Source: Corynespora cassiicola (Eukaryota; Ascomycota; Dothideomycetes; Pleosporales; Corynesporascaceae). Taken from it: a stretch of DNA of 64,000 bases. This document shows, piece by piece, positions 34,369-63,616 of the stretch (positions within the stretch are counted from its first letter, which is position 1; every line of letters starts with the position of its first letter). Location: the NCBI GenBank assembly GCA_022059125.1, contig JAEUWY010000002.1, positions 4,526,001 through 4,590,000 on the forward strand. The letters run 5' to 3'. A program made the translations under genes and the position numbers. The notes below the pieces were generated by a model. That model had not been told where the DNA came from and did no database searches. It saw only the letters and a list, made by a program, of their open reading frames with translations.

Positions 34369-35390
34369 ATGTGCATCGCGATAGTAACCACTGAGCATCC
34401 TCAGTACCCGCTCATCATCCTCAATAACCGAGATGTATTCCGGCACCACGATTTGAATGAAAAAGCAAGTGGCAAGGCTGACATGTGTTACAGGAATATC
34501 TGCACCGGCCGACCCACGATGCAACCTGGTGGCCGGCCCCCGACACCCAGGTCCTCGGTGGATATGACTTGCATCGGCCAGCCCACGGAACATGGCTGGG
34601 CGTGACTCGCCAGGGCCGAATCGCAGTACTCACCAACTACCGCGAAGAGGACCAGGCCATTGTAGAAGGCGCCCGAAGCCGAGGACTCATCCCCAACGCC
34701 TGGCTCAAGTCGGCGCCCCACGAAAAGGAGACGACCGAGCAGTTTGCAAAGAGGTTCGTTGAGGTCGACGGCGTGCAAGGCGTTGGCGGCTTCAGCCTCT
34801 TGTACGGCTTCGCCCAAGACGTCGTCAAGGGCGACTCTGGCAAAGGCCTCGGCATCATCTCGAACCGCACGCCTGACGCCGAGGCCGTCATTCATGTGGC
34901 GAGCAAGCCTGGCGAGACACATGGCCTCAGCAACGCGGCGTTTGGCGACCGGTCCTGGCCCAAGGTCGTAAACGGCGAGAAGTGGACCAAGGCAGCCGTG
35001 AACGAGAGCGTGGAAAAGGGCGAGACGCGCGAGCAGCTGGTCGACAGGCTGCTCGCTGTCCTGAGCACCGACACCATGCCGCGCCAGAAGGAGAACGAGG
35101 AGTGGGACATGTATCTCAACCAGCTTCGGCACAGCATCTTTGTCCCCTCGATAGGGCGGGACCATCTCGAGGAGCACAACATGCCGGCTCACGACGTGGG
35201 GGATATCGTCAAGCAGCTTGCCCCTGATGCCACCTCGGGTTGCTATGGGACGCAGAAGCAAATCATCATCTTGGTTGACAAGGAGGGCAAGATGTTTTAT
35301 CTTGAACGGACTCTGTTTGATGGCGACGCGAAGCCTGTTGAGAAGGGCAAAGGCGACCGGACGTTTGAATTCCAGATTGAGGCATGGTAA
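34369..35390 (+). CDS. TANGO2/NRDE family protein (DUF833)
   Basis: Two exons (34369-34434 and 34494-35390) give 320 aa. The protein opens MCIAIVTTEHPQYPLIILNN and continues RDEYLHRPT, the NRDE signature that starts right after the initiator Met-Cys. WWPAPDTQVLGGYDL, GTWLGVTRQGRIAVLTNYRE, GFSLLYGF, SNRTPD and HGLSNAAFGDRSWPKV follow in family order. The 59-nt intron splits the NRDE motif between D and E. Family knowledge: TANGO2 affects Golgi organisation and lipid or heme handling; fungal members are poorly studied and the N-terminal nucleophile-like fold is of unproven activity. Length is normal. Confidence 0.9.
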
Positions 35391-35857: not shown

Positions 35858-37504
35858 ATGGCCTCGCTGCCGCCGCAGCGCCCTGCATCCCAGCGGAGGC
35901 CGTCCCCGCCTGCCGAGGCCTCCTCCGCGCGCGAGCTCACGGAACGCACAAACAGCTTCTCTGCCGCCTCCGTCGACTCACAGACGCTCTTCCTAAATTC
36001 TCCGCCACCATCGTCGTCCGAAAAGCCCGTCGAGTTAGCCCAGAAGGAGGCGCCCGCACCGACACAACCACAGGACGAAGACGCTGAGCCGCGCAAGTGC
36101 TGGATCTGCTTCAACGACGAGACAGAGGACGATGAAACCACGTCAGAATGGCGGTCCCCGTGCCCATGCGTCTTGGTCGCGCATGAGCGCTGTCTGCTAG
36201 ATTGGATTGCTGACATGGAGGCCCCCAGTTCGAGGCGGCGCGCTGGAAACCGCGTGGGCAAGATACAGTGTCCGCAGTGCAAGTCTGAGATACGGCTTGA
36301 GCGGCCACGGAGTTTCATTGTGGACAGTGTGCGCGCCGTGGAGCGTATGACGGGCATGATGTTGCTACCGGGCTTCATCTTTGTGACTGCGACGGCAGCC
36401 TACTCCACGCTCAAGCTGGCTGGCATCTACACCATCAACCAGATCTTCGGACGGGAAGATGGACTACTCATTTTGCACCCGCTCTATGAGGTCCCAACCG
36501 CAGTGGGTTCGTCAATGGGAGACCGTCTTCTGGAGGGACTGCGACAGCACTGGAGGTTGGACATTGGGCTTCCCTTGATCCCAGCGGTGCTCGTGGCGAG
36601 CAGGACCACCTTGGCGGACTCGTTCCTCCCTTTCCTGCCTCTCATATTCTTCGTCAGTTCTGGACGTGCTGCAGGGCCCCAGGATGAGTTGCTGCAACTC
36701 TCGTGGCCGCCCAGTGCGGCGTTCACCGTAGCAACCCTCCCTTACATTCGAGGCATCTACAATGCCTACTACGAGCGCTTCTGGTTGCCCAGGGAGCGCC
36801 GCTGGCTGAAGGAGATTCAACCTCGCGCGGGATCAGATGATGGTGGCAATATAGAGATCGACATCGACGACCACGACCACGATCATGACCATGCCCATGA
36901 CCATGATGACGACGAAGAGGCTTTGGAACTTGAGGTTGACTTTGACATCTTTGCAGATTGGAACAATGGCGGTGAAGCAGATAATAACAATGCGCCTGAA
37001 AATCCCCCGGTACCCATTGCTCGAGGCCCAGCACACCCGTTGAATGCGCCGCCAATGGACGATGACACAGACACCGACACCGATGATGAACCTCCGGCGC
37101 TCGTCGATGCCGATCCTGCGCCCGCTCCAAACGTTCCCCAGCAGCCGCCGGCCCAGCCAAGACAACAGCGCATACGCCGCGAGCGCAACATTGCTTTTAG
37201 CACCACCAGCCTTGCGGACACCATCCTCGGTGCCCTCATATTTCCTTCGATTGCCGCAGCCGTGGGCGAGGCACTGAAGCAGGTCCTCCCACAGTCTTGG
37301 GTGACGCCCCCTGCGTCGGGCGCGAAACCGACGGGCTTCCTGCAGTCCAGGTGGGCACGGAGTATTGTCGGGGGCTGCCTGTTTGTCGGCGTCAAGGATG
37401 CGGTGCTTCTCTATGTTCGGTGGAAGATGGCGCAGAATCATCGCCACCGGAGGGTTTTGGATTATGATAGGAAAAAGGACAAGAAGAAGAGTGGGAGAGT
37501 GTAG
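35858..37504 (+). CDS. Membrane RING-CH (MARCH-type) ubiquitin ligase candidate
   Basis: A single frame of 548 aa from the ATG at 35858. The RING-CH zinc finger covers residues 81-141: CWICF (C81, C84), CPC (C102, C104), HERC (H109, C112) and CPQC (C138, C141), a C4HC3 order, with the conserved Trp after C112 (LLDWI). Hydrophobic helices follow (GMMLLPGFIFVTATAAYSTLKLAGIY near 160, more near 235-275 and 450-520). This is the layout of membrane-bound MARCH-type E3 ligases, which ubiquitinate membrane proteins. A loop near residues 333-352 is an unusual His/Asp-rich tract (HDHDHDHAHDHDDD) that may bind metal ions. Target and compartment (ER, mitochondrion or vacuole) are unknown. Confidence 0.85.
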   Translation: MASLPPQRPASQRRPSPPAEASSARELTERTNSFSAASVDSQTLFLNSPPPSSSEKPVELAQKEAPAPTQPQDEDAEPRKCWICFNDETEDDETTSEWRSPCPCVLVAHERCLLDWIADMEAPSSRRRAGNRVGKIQCPQCKSEIRLERPRSFIVDSVRAVERMTGMMLLPGFIFVTATAAYSTLKLAGIYTINQIFGREDGLLILHPLYEVPTAVGSSMGDRLLEGLRQHWRLDIGLPLIPAVLVASRTTLADSFLPFLPLIFFVSSGRAAGPQDELLQLSWPPSAAFTVATLPYIRGIYNAYYERFWLPRERRWLKEIQPRAGSDDGGNIEIDIDDHDHDHDHAHDHDDDEEALELEVDFDIFADWNNGGEADNNNAPENPPVPIARGPAHPLNAPPMDDDTDTDTDDEPPALVDADPAPAPNVPQQPPAQPRQQRIRRERNIAFSTTSLADTILGALIFPSIAAAVGEALKQVLPQSWVTPPASGAKPTGFLQSRWARSIVGGCLFVGVKDAVLLYVRWKMAQNHRHRRVLDYDRKKDKKKSGRV

Positions 37505-37952: not shown

Positions 37953-37959
37953 AAAAAAA
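37953..37959 (-). terminator. Pol III T-run terminator of the tRNA-His gene
   Basis: Seven consecutive T residues on the minus strand start 16 nt beyond the last tRNA base (37975). A run of four or more T is enough to stop RNA polymerase III, so the placement supports a live Pol III gene rather than a random tRNA-like sequence. Confidence 0.7.
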
Positions 37960-37974
37960 GAATATTCAGCTCCT

Positions 37975-38104
37975 TGGCGGTGCTGGGACTCGAACTGCGC
38001 GATATGTTAGTATCGCTGTGACTATAAATCCTCAGATGAGAGGGCCAACCTACCCCAGGCTGGCGCGGCCACAACGCGACGTCATACCCCTAGACCACAC
38101 CACC
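37975..38104 (-). tRNA. tRNA-His(GTG) with an intron-like insert in the T arm
   Basis: Exons 38104-38054 and 37994-37975 join to a 71-nt tRNA. The acceptor stem GGTGGTG/CACCGCC has seven pairs (one G-T) with discriminator A73, as in eukaryotic tRNA-His, where G-1 is added later. The D arm is GGTCTAGGGGTATGAC. The anticodon stem has four good pairs (CGCG/CGCG) and one T-C mismatch at its top. The loop TTGTGGC has anticodon GTG. The joined T arm is CTGGG-TTCGAGT-CCCAG, five perfect pairs. Unspliced, three of five T-stem pairs are lost. No insert lies at the usual position 37/38. The A box is intact, and the B box reads AGTTCGAGTCC across the insert end. It could be a pseudogene, but the terminator and stem conservation argue against that. 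Confidence 0.78.
37995..38053 (-). other. 59-nt spliceosomal-like intron inside tRNA-His T arm
   Basis: Read on the minus strand the insert starts GTAGGT, contains GATACTAACAT (perfect TACTAAC branch site, branch A about 12 nt from the end) and ends CGCGCAG. Length and signals match the protein-gene introns of this window. It sits between T-stem base 53 and loop base 54. Its terminal AG replaces the two G that begin a B box (GGTTCGANTCC), so an 10-of-11 B box survives in the unspliced gene. Confidence 0.72.
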
Positions 38105-38567: not shown

Positions 38568-41002
38568 ATGGCAGACGCAGGTAAGGATTGTTGCTCCTTT
38601 CGGCTGCCGGCTACACGTCCACACAGGCTGGCCACCCGGTGCGCATCACATGCTCACGTGTGGAAACAGGTCGATCGCGGCGCGCGTCTCGCGGACAGCC
38701 CAAGTCCTATCGGACTGCCGACTACTATCAGGGCATCATCGAGGACGACTCCTCCTCCGAGACGGACGGTGTGGATCGGAGAGCAGAAAAGGAGGATGGC
38801 GGCGAGTATGAGCCTCCGGCCAATGAGGAAGAGGAGCAAGACGATGATTTCGCAGAGGCTGGTGAGGTGGAAGAGGACGATGAGAACTACGAGGGCGCGG
38901 AGGGGTCCGACGGCGACCTTCCGGCGGGAGAGTCGGTCATAGACGTTCTCTCCGACCACGAGCCTGGCAGGACCAAGAAACCCAGTAAAAGTCGCGGTGT
39001 CGACTCCGAACCCATGACCACCTTGGTCGTGAGCGGGCACGCGATCAAGGTCAAGCCGGCTTCTGCATGGCATCAAGGCGAGGACGCGAAGTTGTTGAAT
39101 AGGGGGGTCCTTGAATGGGGAGAGGGTGGGCAAGAGGCCCGTCTGAAGAACTTCTTTGGTCCATCACACGAGAACTTGATCCCAGTGCTCAAGACGAGAG
39201 ACCACTGGAGTCACATGCACACCCTACCGAAGCGGGATGATGGGCACTTGCACGAGTCGTATTTCCCGGCCGAGGGTGCACTGGAGAAGGAGACCAGGGC
39301 GACGAGGAAATGGTATGCCGATGCTGGGCGAGAACTGTTTGCTGCAGGCCAAAAGAGCAGAAATTTGAGCGAAGAGGAGGGGAAGAAGTACATGGTCACT
39401 GAGGAAGAGGAATCTCTCAATGTTCTTTTGGGGGATTTGAAGAACCCGCAGGTTTACGAGATACCCAAGGGATCCTACATTAGCACGGCAGAGCCCTTTG
39501 CCAGTAAAGAAGGACGCAAAGGATGGATATTGAACGTGGGTGCAAAAGTGCGAGAGGCACAGTGGGTCAAGAATGAGCAAGACTCTACACAATACCTTGC
39601 AATTGTTGCAGAGCAAAAGGAACCTAGCACTGCTGGTCGACGGCCACACAAACCACTAGAAACTCCACAGGCACCAGCCTACACGCCCACCAGTCCTTTC
39701 CCCGCATCAATACAGATCTGGGTATTTGAAGCGGACGAAAAAGGTGAGGTCGATCCGAACAAGGAACCCAGGCTCGAGTTGGTCATTTGTGCGGATTGGG
39801 GCTTTCCCAAAAAAATTCGGTGGTGTCCAGTAGGCCTAAAGGACAATTTACAGCCTTCTAGTGATGGTGACAATATTCACCTCGGCCTTCTTGCTGGTAT
39901 TTGGTCCGACGGCGGTGTCCGGGTCTTGGACATATCCTACAGGCGGCCGGAGGGTGAATCTCCAACGACACAATACCAACATTATTCCCACGCCGCCTTC
40001 GAATCTTATTTCCCCAACACCATCTCTACTACTCTTCATTGGTTGTCTGGGACTAGCATAGCAGTAGCTAATGCAGATGGGTCTCTCTCCATCTGGACCT
40101 TGACCCGACCAGATGCCTTTCCCAGGCCACAGATGTCTGTTACGGAGCGGCACAACCCACAGCCATGGTTTCACAGGCAGATTGCGGACACTTATATCAT
40201 AGCCTTGGTTTCTGGGTGGCCCTCTCGCCCCAACTACGTCTCAATAACCACCGTCGATGGCTATTCACTCCTGTACGACCTCCGCAACCACTGGAACGAA
40301 GTGTGCACCTCGCCCCGCGGCCGCATGCTCCTCGCAGCCCAGGCCTGGCACGAGCACACGCAATCCTTCGTCATGCCCGACGAATACTACTTTTTGCGGC
40401 ACAACACGATCCGCCGCACCTACTCCAACGTCTACACGATGCGCATGGACAGCACCATCATCGCGGTAGCCACGAGCGCCGTCCACCCCAGCATCCTCGT
40501 CGCCGGCGCAGACGGCGAGATCCTGGCCAACAACCCCACGGCCAGGATGCTCAACAACAAGGAGACGCCGTGGAAGCAGACGTGGTTCAAGCACGAGTGG
40601 CGCCCACCCATCGACCGCCTCGCAATCAAGATCCCGGCCCCCGTCGATCCCGCCGAAAAGCCTTGCACCAGCATCCCCCTCATCGGCGACAATGTACCCC
40701 CCGTTCCTAGCAGCCCTCCGCCTCTGAGTTCTCAGACCAACGGCCAGGGCCAGACCACAGTGGACCCCGCGCTCCTCGCCCGCCCCATGGCACGCCTCAC
40801 CGAGGGCTACAAGGCCGAGCTCATGGTGCTGCAGCACGCCAACATGTCCAAGAAGTTCAAGGACGGCCACAAGCTCATCACCGTGTACGAGGAGAAGAGC
40901 GCCGTGTCGGCTCTGGCGTGGAATCCGAACCAGAGGTGTGGGAGTTGGGCGGTGGCGGGTTTGGGGTCGGGGTTGGTGAGGGTCGAGGATTTGGGGGTTT
41001 AG
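38568..41002 (+). CDS. tfc6: TFIIIC subunit Tfc6-like WD-repeat protein
   Basis: Two exons (38568-38580 and 38670-41002) give 781 aa. Exon 1 is only 13 nt (ATG GCA GAC GCA G). The 89-nt intron ends at AAACAG, giving MADAGRSRRASRGQPKSYR. A basic start is followed by a long acidic stretch (about 30-100: EEEEQDDDFAEAGEVEEDDE). The body is a WD-like propeller: GWILNVGAKVREAQWV, PASIQIWVFEADE, LELVICADWGFPKKIRWCP, LLAGIWSDGGVRVLDI, STTLHWLSGTSIAVANADGSLSIW and YVSITTVDGYSLLYDLRNHW. This fits fungal Tfc6 (tau91), which with Tfc3 recognises the B box of tRNA genes. Identification rests on overall pattern; another WD chromatin protein is the alternative. Confidence 0.65.
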
Positions 41003-63486: not shown

Positions 63487-63607
63487 ACATACGACCATAG
63501 GACGTTGAATTAATAGGGCTTCCCGTCCGCTCAGCCATACTCAAGCAGCGTACCGGCGGACTAGTAGTTGGGTGGGTGACCACCAGCGAATCCCCGCTGT
63601 CGTATGT
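63487..63607 (+). rRNA. 5S ribosomal RNA
   Basis: The 121-nt gene starts ACATACGACCATAGG and ends GTCGTATGT; these ends pair as helix I over nine bases. The conserved inner part includes GGGCTTCCCGTCCGCTCAGCC, the loop TAGTAGTTGGGTGGGTGACC and CCAGCGAATCCC. Helix II (ACGTTG/CAGCGT) also pairs. Single 5S genes scattered among protein genes, away from the rDNA array, are normal in filamentous ascomycetes. The downstream T run ends transcription. Confidence 0.93.
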
Positions 63608-63616
63608 TTTTTTTTT
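63607..63616 (+). terminator. Pol III T-run terminator of 5S rRNA
   Basis: Ten consecutive T start at the last base of the 5S gene, the standard Pol III stop. Confidence 0.85.

Follow-up and report, generated by a model that had tools for sequence, protein, structure and literature searches.

This analysis revealed that several tRNA genes of the ascomycete Corynespora cassiicola are interrupted by short inserts with the signals of pre-mRNA introns. At least 13 such genes, transcribed by RNA polymerase III (Pol III), very probably carry U2-type spliceosomal introns; from sequence we infer that the inserts are spliced out, that the spliceosome does the joining, and in which order the steps follow. 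One of these genes lies in the window, the 64,000-nucleotide stretch that was analysed: a tRNA-His(GTG) gene on the minus strand (38104..37975), whose T arm is split at 53/54 by a 59-nt insert (Table 1). A first-pass annotation had interpreted this insert as an intron of spliceosomal type within a tRNA gene transcribed by Pol III. This reading gained strength, as the insert type recurs in 13 genes, keeps its signals amid divergence and shows no bulge-helix-bulge core.

Table 1. Features of the split tRNA-His(GTG) gene, with a pre-mRNA intron of the window for comparison.
Feature	Position in window	Strand	Remarks
tRNA-His exon 1 (acceptor 5' strand, D arm, anticodon arm, T stem 5' strand; positions 1-53)	38054..38104	-	51 nt, identical in three genomic copies
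Spliceosomal-type intron at 53/54	37995..38053	-	59 nt; same type in 12 further tRNA genes
5' splice site GTAGGT	38048..38053	-	invariant among three His copies
Branch site TACTAAC	38006..38012	-	branch A 38007, 12 nt before 3' splice site; TGCTAAC in third His copy
3' splice site CGCAG	37995..37999	-	final G completes box B in unspliced DNA
tRNA-His exon 2 (TTCGAGT loop, T stem 3' strand, acceptor 3' strand, discriminator A)	37975..37994	-	20 nt
Box B GTTCGAGTC	37987..37995	-	unbroken in DNA; read from sequence
T7 run, Pol III terminator	37953..37959	-	starts 16 nt past discriminator
Intron of TANGO2-like gene (pre-mRNA)	34435..34493	+	59 nt, GTATTC..GCTGAC..CAG; joins ..NNRD/EYLHRPTHDATWW..; frame by eye

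The split tRNA-His(GTG) gene and its genomic copies

The elements that the first-pass annotation had read in this gene are all present. The acceptor stem has seven of seven pairs, one of them G.U, and the T stem reaches five of five pairs (CTGGG/CCCAG, loop TTCGAGT) only after joining. The anticodon stem, as judged by eye, has four pairs and a U.C mismatch. The insert with its GTAGGT, TACTAAC and CAG lies where it had been placed, the minus strand having been left unstated, and the T-run downstream was likewise found. A G stands on both sides, so that the join can be drawn at either 53/54 or 52/53, one base apart. The intron ends in G, which leaves GTTCGAGTC unbroken in the DNA.

Model searches with and without the insert, which had also been suggested, agree with this anatomy. 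The Rfam tRNA model scored 32.7 bits (gathering score 29) on 501 bases around the gene with its insert, which the alignment from that scan places as a long T-loop insertion; when the whole window was scanned, the gene was listed neither at the gathering threshold nor at E up to 5 with laxer filters. ARAGORN reported no tRNA in the window and did not read the unspliced gene, and identified tRNA-His(gtg) once the insert had been removed by script. The insert is not due to chance, since two more genomic copies have it and shuffled sequences rarely yield its signals.

The gene is flanked by a RING-variant gene (frame ending at 37504) and an ORF starting at 38585, both on the plus strand. The 547-aa RING-variant protein matches a protein of C. 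cassiicola strain Philippines (99% over 49% of its length), as does an esterase encoded in the window (86% over 88%). An uninterrupted 5S rRNA gene is located at 63487-63608 of the window (75.3 bits, Rfam).

A DNA search of the 44.35 Mb assembly (23 contigs) with the 130-nt tRNA-His gene returned three loci, all of which contain the insert. Their mature positions are identical at 71 of 71 sites, while the inserts, of 59, 58 and 56 nt, match pairwise in 54/60, 46/60 and 49/59 aligned columns (10-23% difference). GTAGGTTGGCCC, CTAACA and CGCAG are retained across the three inserts, and beyond the gene the flanks of the loci align only in short patches. Were exon and intron to mutate equally, the chance of 71 identical sites beside 46/60 would be near 1e-8 by a hand calculation; selection on the joined tRNA product is therefore well supported. 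The three His inserts (window 37995-38053, L010 and L011) may each form two hairpins, a prediction drawn from these three sequences; one stem reads CCAC/GTGG in the third copy instead of CCTC/GAGG, and the other hairpin holds the branch site in its loop.

A count of intact tRNA-His genes elsewhere, proposed as a check by the first-pass annotation, gave none: all three copies found are interrupted. The DNA search with the 130-nt gene revealed no intact copy, nor did a pattern allowing up to three mismatches (25 hits versus 20 in the reversed control), whose three exact hits are the three tRNA-His genes and whose hits with two or three mismatches were judged from the printed letters only. Its sole one-mismatch hit (L022) lacks a T arm and was rejected. 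A pattern running from anticodon to T loop gave 45 hits versus 56 in the reversed control, and none of the 20 examined has both the anticodon and the T stem. ARAGORN found no intact tRNA-His in 240 genomic stretches. The Rfam tRNA search of the genome scored 63 of 1206 candidates, which leaves the tRNA census incomplete, and further insert positions or isotypes may have escaped it; the assembly itself may also lack a tRNA-His gene.

Related inserts in tRNA-Lys, tRNA-Ile and tRNA-Ser genes

The first-pass annotation had suggested looking for the same insert in other tRNA genes. Inserts of this type were found there, giving 13 tRNA genes of four isotypes in total, with inserts of 48-59 nt. T-arm inserts at 53/54 occur in six of the seven tRNA-Lys(CTT) and three of the five tRNA-Ile(AAT) genes found, these totals being genome pattern counts; one Lys(CTT) and two Ile(AAT) copies are without them. 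The Lys and Ile genes also contain the canonical anticodon-loop intron, which ARAGORN marks in eight of the nine joined insert-bearing genes.

Three pattern searches led to these genes. The pattern CTAAC followed by AGTTCGANNC, in which GTANG was not required, gave 22 hits versus 61 in the reversed control; the 20 hits that were read include 10 tRNA genes (three His, five Lys(CTT), two Ile(AAT)), and all 10 have GTANG. Two gene copies escaped this pattern, one with CTGAC and one with TTCAA. The pattern GTANG plus AGTTCRANNC, without a branch site, was run over two length ranges and gave 72 and 50 hits against 122 and 110 in the reversed controls. The hits, being fewer than the controls, are therefore mostly chance, and every one was inspected by T-stem and acceptor pairing. 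This yielded 12 tRNA genes (three His, six Lys, three Ile), each with CTRAC. The 25 distinct candidate joins with at least four T-stem pairs comprise these 12 genes, three alternative His joins and 10 candidates without a seven-pair acceptor. Two of these 10, L137 and L150, show five T-stem pairs but only six acceptor pairs and lack CTRAC; they were set aside. With positions +3 and +4 left free and GGG required before the insert, 15 hits were obtained versus one in the reversed control; 12 are the same tRNA genes, all with GTANG and A at +3. A hit of this pattern outside the 12 tRNA genes, at C5:4981915-4981989, reads GGG/GTTGG and AG/TTCGAATCC. As GTANG, AG and TTCRANNC served as search criteria for the 12 genes at 53/54, inserts of another form could be missed.

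One of the Ile genes, Ile1, has a mismatch in its T stem (four of five pairs) and may be decaying. Three tRNA-Lys(CTT) genes, all with inserts at 53/54, lie within about 1 kb at C6:1322900-1324050 (L238). Two of them are tandem neighbours, separated by 17 nt that include no terminator, and are therefore probably read as one transcript. A tandem tRNA-Ile(AAT) pair at C20:1493880-1494240 (L140, L079) consists of a first gene without and a second gene with the T-arm insert, and thus offers a natural comparison between neighbouring copies.

A tRNA-Ser(GCT) gene (C15:1069644-1069780) revealed a second position: its 56-nt insert, GTAAGT..GTCTAACA..CATAG, follows A58 (58/59), with the branch A 10 nt before the 3' site. 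This gene was found by the tRNA model alone, as the weakest match of the genome-wide Rfam search. After joining, the acceptor stem counts seven pairs and the T stem five, and the T loop has seven bases; ARAGORN does not read the gene unspliced (0/1) and identifies tRNA-Ser(gct) after joining (1/1). The junction tolerates a shift of up to 2 nt with the T arm intact, and GT-AG sets it at 58/59. In the DNA, the last base of its box B differs. No intact tRNA-Ser(GCT) was found by ARAGORN among the 240 genomic stretches.

Splice signals and the machine that would remove the inserts

All 13 inserts begin with GTANG and end with AG, which were partly search criteria, and in all of them CTRACA is present, its branch A lying 10-14 nt upstream of the 3' site. 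They thus carry the extended 5' splice site of U2-type spliceosomal introns and, at a short and fixed distance from the 3' site, the branch-site consensus, which the GTANG-pattern searches did not ask for. Support for GTANG that is independent of the search criteria comes from the 10 of 10 genes of the CTAAC pattern, the 12 of 12 genes of the pattern with +3 and +4 free, and the Ser gene. In dinucleotide shuffles, CTRAC at that distance arose in 0.4-3.7% for the 12 inserts at 53/54 and in 1.3% for Ser; all three signals together arose at most once in 5000 shuffles for each of the 12 inserts at 53/54. The inserts of one family are related to each other, and the independent evidence amounts to three to four insert families rather than 13.

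The genes also bear the marks of functional tRNA genes, with a complete cloverleaf after joining and Pol III signals. ARAGORN read none of the 13 as a tRNA with the insert and all 13 without it. A shift control (663 excisions, unshifted ones included) showed that excisions off by several bases also score as tRNA; it is therefore the splice signals, together with T stem and T loop, that define the exact junction. After joining, the acceptor stem has seven of seven pairs in all 13 genes and the T stem five of five in 12, the exception being Ile1. GTTCRANNC, which we take to be the box B core, is present in the unspliced sequence of all 12 genes interrupted at 53/54, where it was part of the search pattern; it is unbroken because an intron at 53/54 ends in AG, so that this position suits a Pol III gene. 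A run of T7 or longer follows 11 of these 12 genes, and the twelfth is the upstream gene of a tandem pair. CATCAA occurs within 60 nt upstream of nine of the 12 genes, as well as before the three Lys and Ile copies without a T-arm insert; this element is perhaps part of a Pol III start region.

In length (48-59 nt) and layout, the inserts resemble the organism's pre-mRNA introns, as far as the one compared is concerned: in the intron of the TANGO2-like gene the branch A lies 12 nt from the 3' site. Over 253 kb, GTANGN joined to RCTRAC..YAG occurred 35 times, tRNA inserts among them, and 10 times in the reversed control. All GT hexamers taken together came to 249 versus 245 in the reversed control on these non-overlapping loci, and to 594 versus 728 on overlapping loci, without an overall excess.

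With regard to the machine, the canonical nuclear tRNA intron, cut at 37/38 by the Sen endonuclease, does not fit the position, which is 53/54 in 12 genes and 58/59 in one. The inserts could instead be non-canonical tRNA introns that the tRNA splicing endonuclease cuts via a bulge-helix-bulge, as in archaea and the red alga Cyanidioschyzon merolae, a reading that we regard as unlikely. According to the available parts of the sources, introns at 53/54 do occur in archaea (PMC4090602) and C. merolae (PMC9602550). The His inserts have predicted hairpins (MFE down to -17.0, z -1.0 to -1.8), and one Lys insert has a z of -2.3, which would suit a structure-based process. Nevertheless, no 4-bp central helix was found, with relaxed geometries allowed, in any of the 12 inserts at 53/54 (one-base shift included) or in the unshifted Ser insert (0/13 overall), by a code that recovers a synthetic motif, has no natural positive control and leaves out other relaxed forms described in the available text of PMC4090602. 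The Lys and Ile inserts, moreover, fold weakly or not at all (MFE 0 to -2.9 kcal/mol), and a bulge-helix-bulge does not explain why 12 of 12 genes from searches with no branch-site requirement have such a site. This makes the spliceosome the better candidate.

It is quite improbable that the spliced RNA is a Pol II read-through transcript from which the tRNA is excised afterwards. Normally, splicing is coupled to transcription by Pol II, and Pol III transcripts are without the cap that aids splicing, a point against the spliceosome acting on them. The flanks of the His loci, with their short patches of alignment, reveal no common host transcript, however, and the T-runs after 11 of 12 genes also speak against read-through.

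Still less probable is that the interrupted copies are dead tRNA genes. According to the available part of a review (PMC4090602), an insertion in the D or T arm of a eukaryotic tRNA gene mostly affects a single one among many synonymous genes and is supposed to mark a pseudogene; Ile1, in addition, has its T-stem mismatch. Against this stand the insert in all three tRNA-His genes found, whose exons stayed identical while the inserts diverged (chance near 1e-8), and the T7 or longer runs kept after 11 of 12 genes. The refuting scenario of the first-pass annotation, a dead copy beside intact tRNA-His genes, is contradicted by the same exon identity and by the failure to find an intact gene. A small degenerate self-splicing element of group I type is scarcely conceivable: putative group I introns of 56-81 nt are described for fungal rDNA in the accessible text of PMC3160393, whereas no Rfam intron family was detected at the locus (E up to 10) or in ten gene-bearing stretches (E up to 0.01), and the Lys and Ile inserts have little or no fold.

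For splicing by the spliceosome, the following course can be proposed. Pol III would transcribe the interrupted gene from its internal boxes A and B, the latter surviving since the terminal AG of the intron adjoins TTCGANNC. Nuclear U1 and U2 would recognize GTANG and NCTRACA, the spliceosome would take out 48-59 nt, and the T arm would form afterwards, with export and end processing coming next. In Lys and Ile transcripts, the 37/38 intron would be removed later by the tRNA endonuclease. The spliceosome acts inside the nucleus, exportin-t recognizes tRNAs by acceptor and T arm, and the yeast tRNA endonuclease acts at the mitochondrial surface; for these reasons the T-arm intron is placed first and the 37/38 intron later.

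Known systems, origin and meaning

Lichen rDNA introns resemble these inserts in that they reside in non-messenger RNA genes of fungi and need the host for splicing; they differ in that they interrupt Pol I rRNA genes, not Pol III tRNA genes. Some of them are spliceosomal, as stated in the available part of PMC8527467. The closest known case is the U6 snRNA of Schizosaccharomyces pombe, which has an mRNA-type intron (PMC10484740, in the portion available, citing Tani and Ohshima 1989, 1991): here, too, a spliceosomal intron interrupts a fungal gene whose noncoding RNA is made by Pol III. U6, however, is a component of the spliceosome, and its intron is thought, in the same portion of PMC10484740, to stem from reverse splicing near the catalytic nucleotides, whereas the hosts in C. 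cassiicola are tRNAs of four isotypes. In the present genome, at least nine U6 matches of 97-105 nt run along the whole model (48 of 2690 candidates scored), and no intron was seen in them; they lie on contigs C5, C23, C4, C8 and C2.

The position 53/54 has a precedent in the tRNA-Ile(UAU) of C. merolae, which has a T-arm intron there and also a canonical 37/38 intron whose removal follows that of the others, the D- and T-arm introns being supposed to go first (PMC9602550, available text). Splicing in C. merolae is nevertheless tied to a bulge-helix-bulge and the endonuclease in the part of PMC4090602 available, whereas the 13 inserts described here show spliceosomal signals and no such core. 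That review, as far as its available text goes, assigns the 53/54 tRNA introns of archaea and C. merolae to the endonuclease. The non-canonical tRNA introns of archaea and nucleomorphs share with our genes the T-arm positions and the occurrence of several introns per gene; those of archaea differ in being endonuclease substrates, and the tRNA inserts of the Guillardia theta nucleomorph in measuring 3-24 nt (PMC4090602, same text). Nuclear tRNA introns are held in these parts of the review to be mostly canonical-site endonuclease substrates, with eukaryotic exceptions supposed to be rare, and the string 'spliceosom' does not occur in its main text as available (PMC4090602). The open-licence literature searched yielded no description of a tRNA gene with a spliceosomal intron. 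As far as found, the intron type is thus familiar, and the class of genes is one in which no case was known. Patterns of the tRNA-His and tRNA-Lys genes gave no matches in viral, bacterial and archaeal contig collections.

With regard to origin, the first-pass annotation had considered an introner-like or reverse-splicing event, which is not supported in that form. An introner-like element would be present in many near-identical copies at unrelated sites; the His gene with its insert matched three places in the genome, all of them tRNA-His loci. No similarity of the His inserts to those of Lys, Ile and Ser was detected outside the splice signals. Among 57 insert pairs between isotypes, one reached p<0.05 outside the signals (Lys6-Ile3, 0.023, 300 shuffles, uncorrected), no more than chance; comparison of the insert interiors gave a z of 3.4 for Lys1-Ile3 and a mean of 0.62 over the Lys-Ile pairs. 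Reverse splicing is a possible source of the inserts.

The T stems of the Ile genes differ with the presence of the insert: they are GTGGG/CCCGC in the insert-bearing genes (L043, L047, L079), with CCCTC in Ile1, and ATGGG/CCCAT in those without it (L139, L140). The Lys genes have CCCGC in the T stem, resembling the 3' T arm of the insert-bearing Ile genes. This resemblance hints that an insert together with its 3' T arm passed from Lys to Ile. The His and Ser inserts look like separate gains.

The inserts are present in some gene copies and absent from others, and occupy at least two positions. Some tRNAs of this fungus probably cannot be made without its mRNA-splicing machinery. With moderate confidence, and as one joint reading, we further consider that its whole supply of tRNA-His and much of its tRNA-Lys(CTT) and tRNA-Ile(AAT) depend on the spliceosome, that the inserts have two or more origins, that tRNA genes are live sites of intron gain, and that Lys and Ile transcripts pass two unrelated splicing machines in turn.

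If this is true, the inserts represent a further class of tRNA intron, one that covers every tRNA-His gene found, and U6 is not the only Pol III transcript that the spliceosome can process. Since tRNA finders can miss such genes (ARAGORN 0/13), genomes seemingly without a given tRNA may repay a look. The inserts would also provide a natural system for intron gain outside protein genes, and the decoding capacity of the fungus would be tied directly to the activity of its spliceosome.
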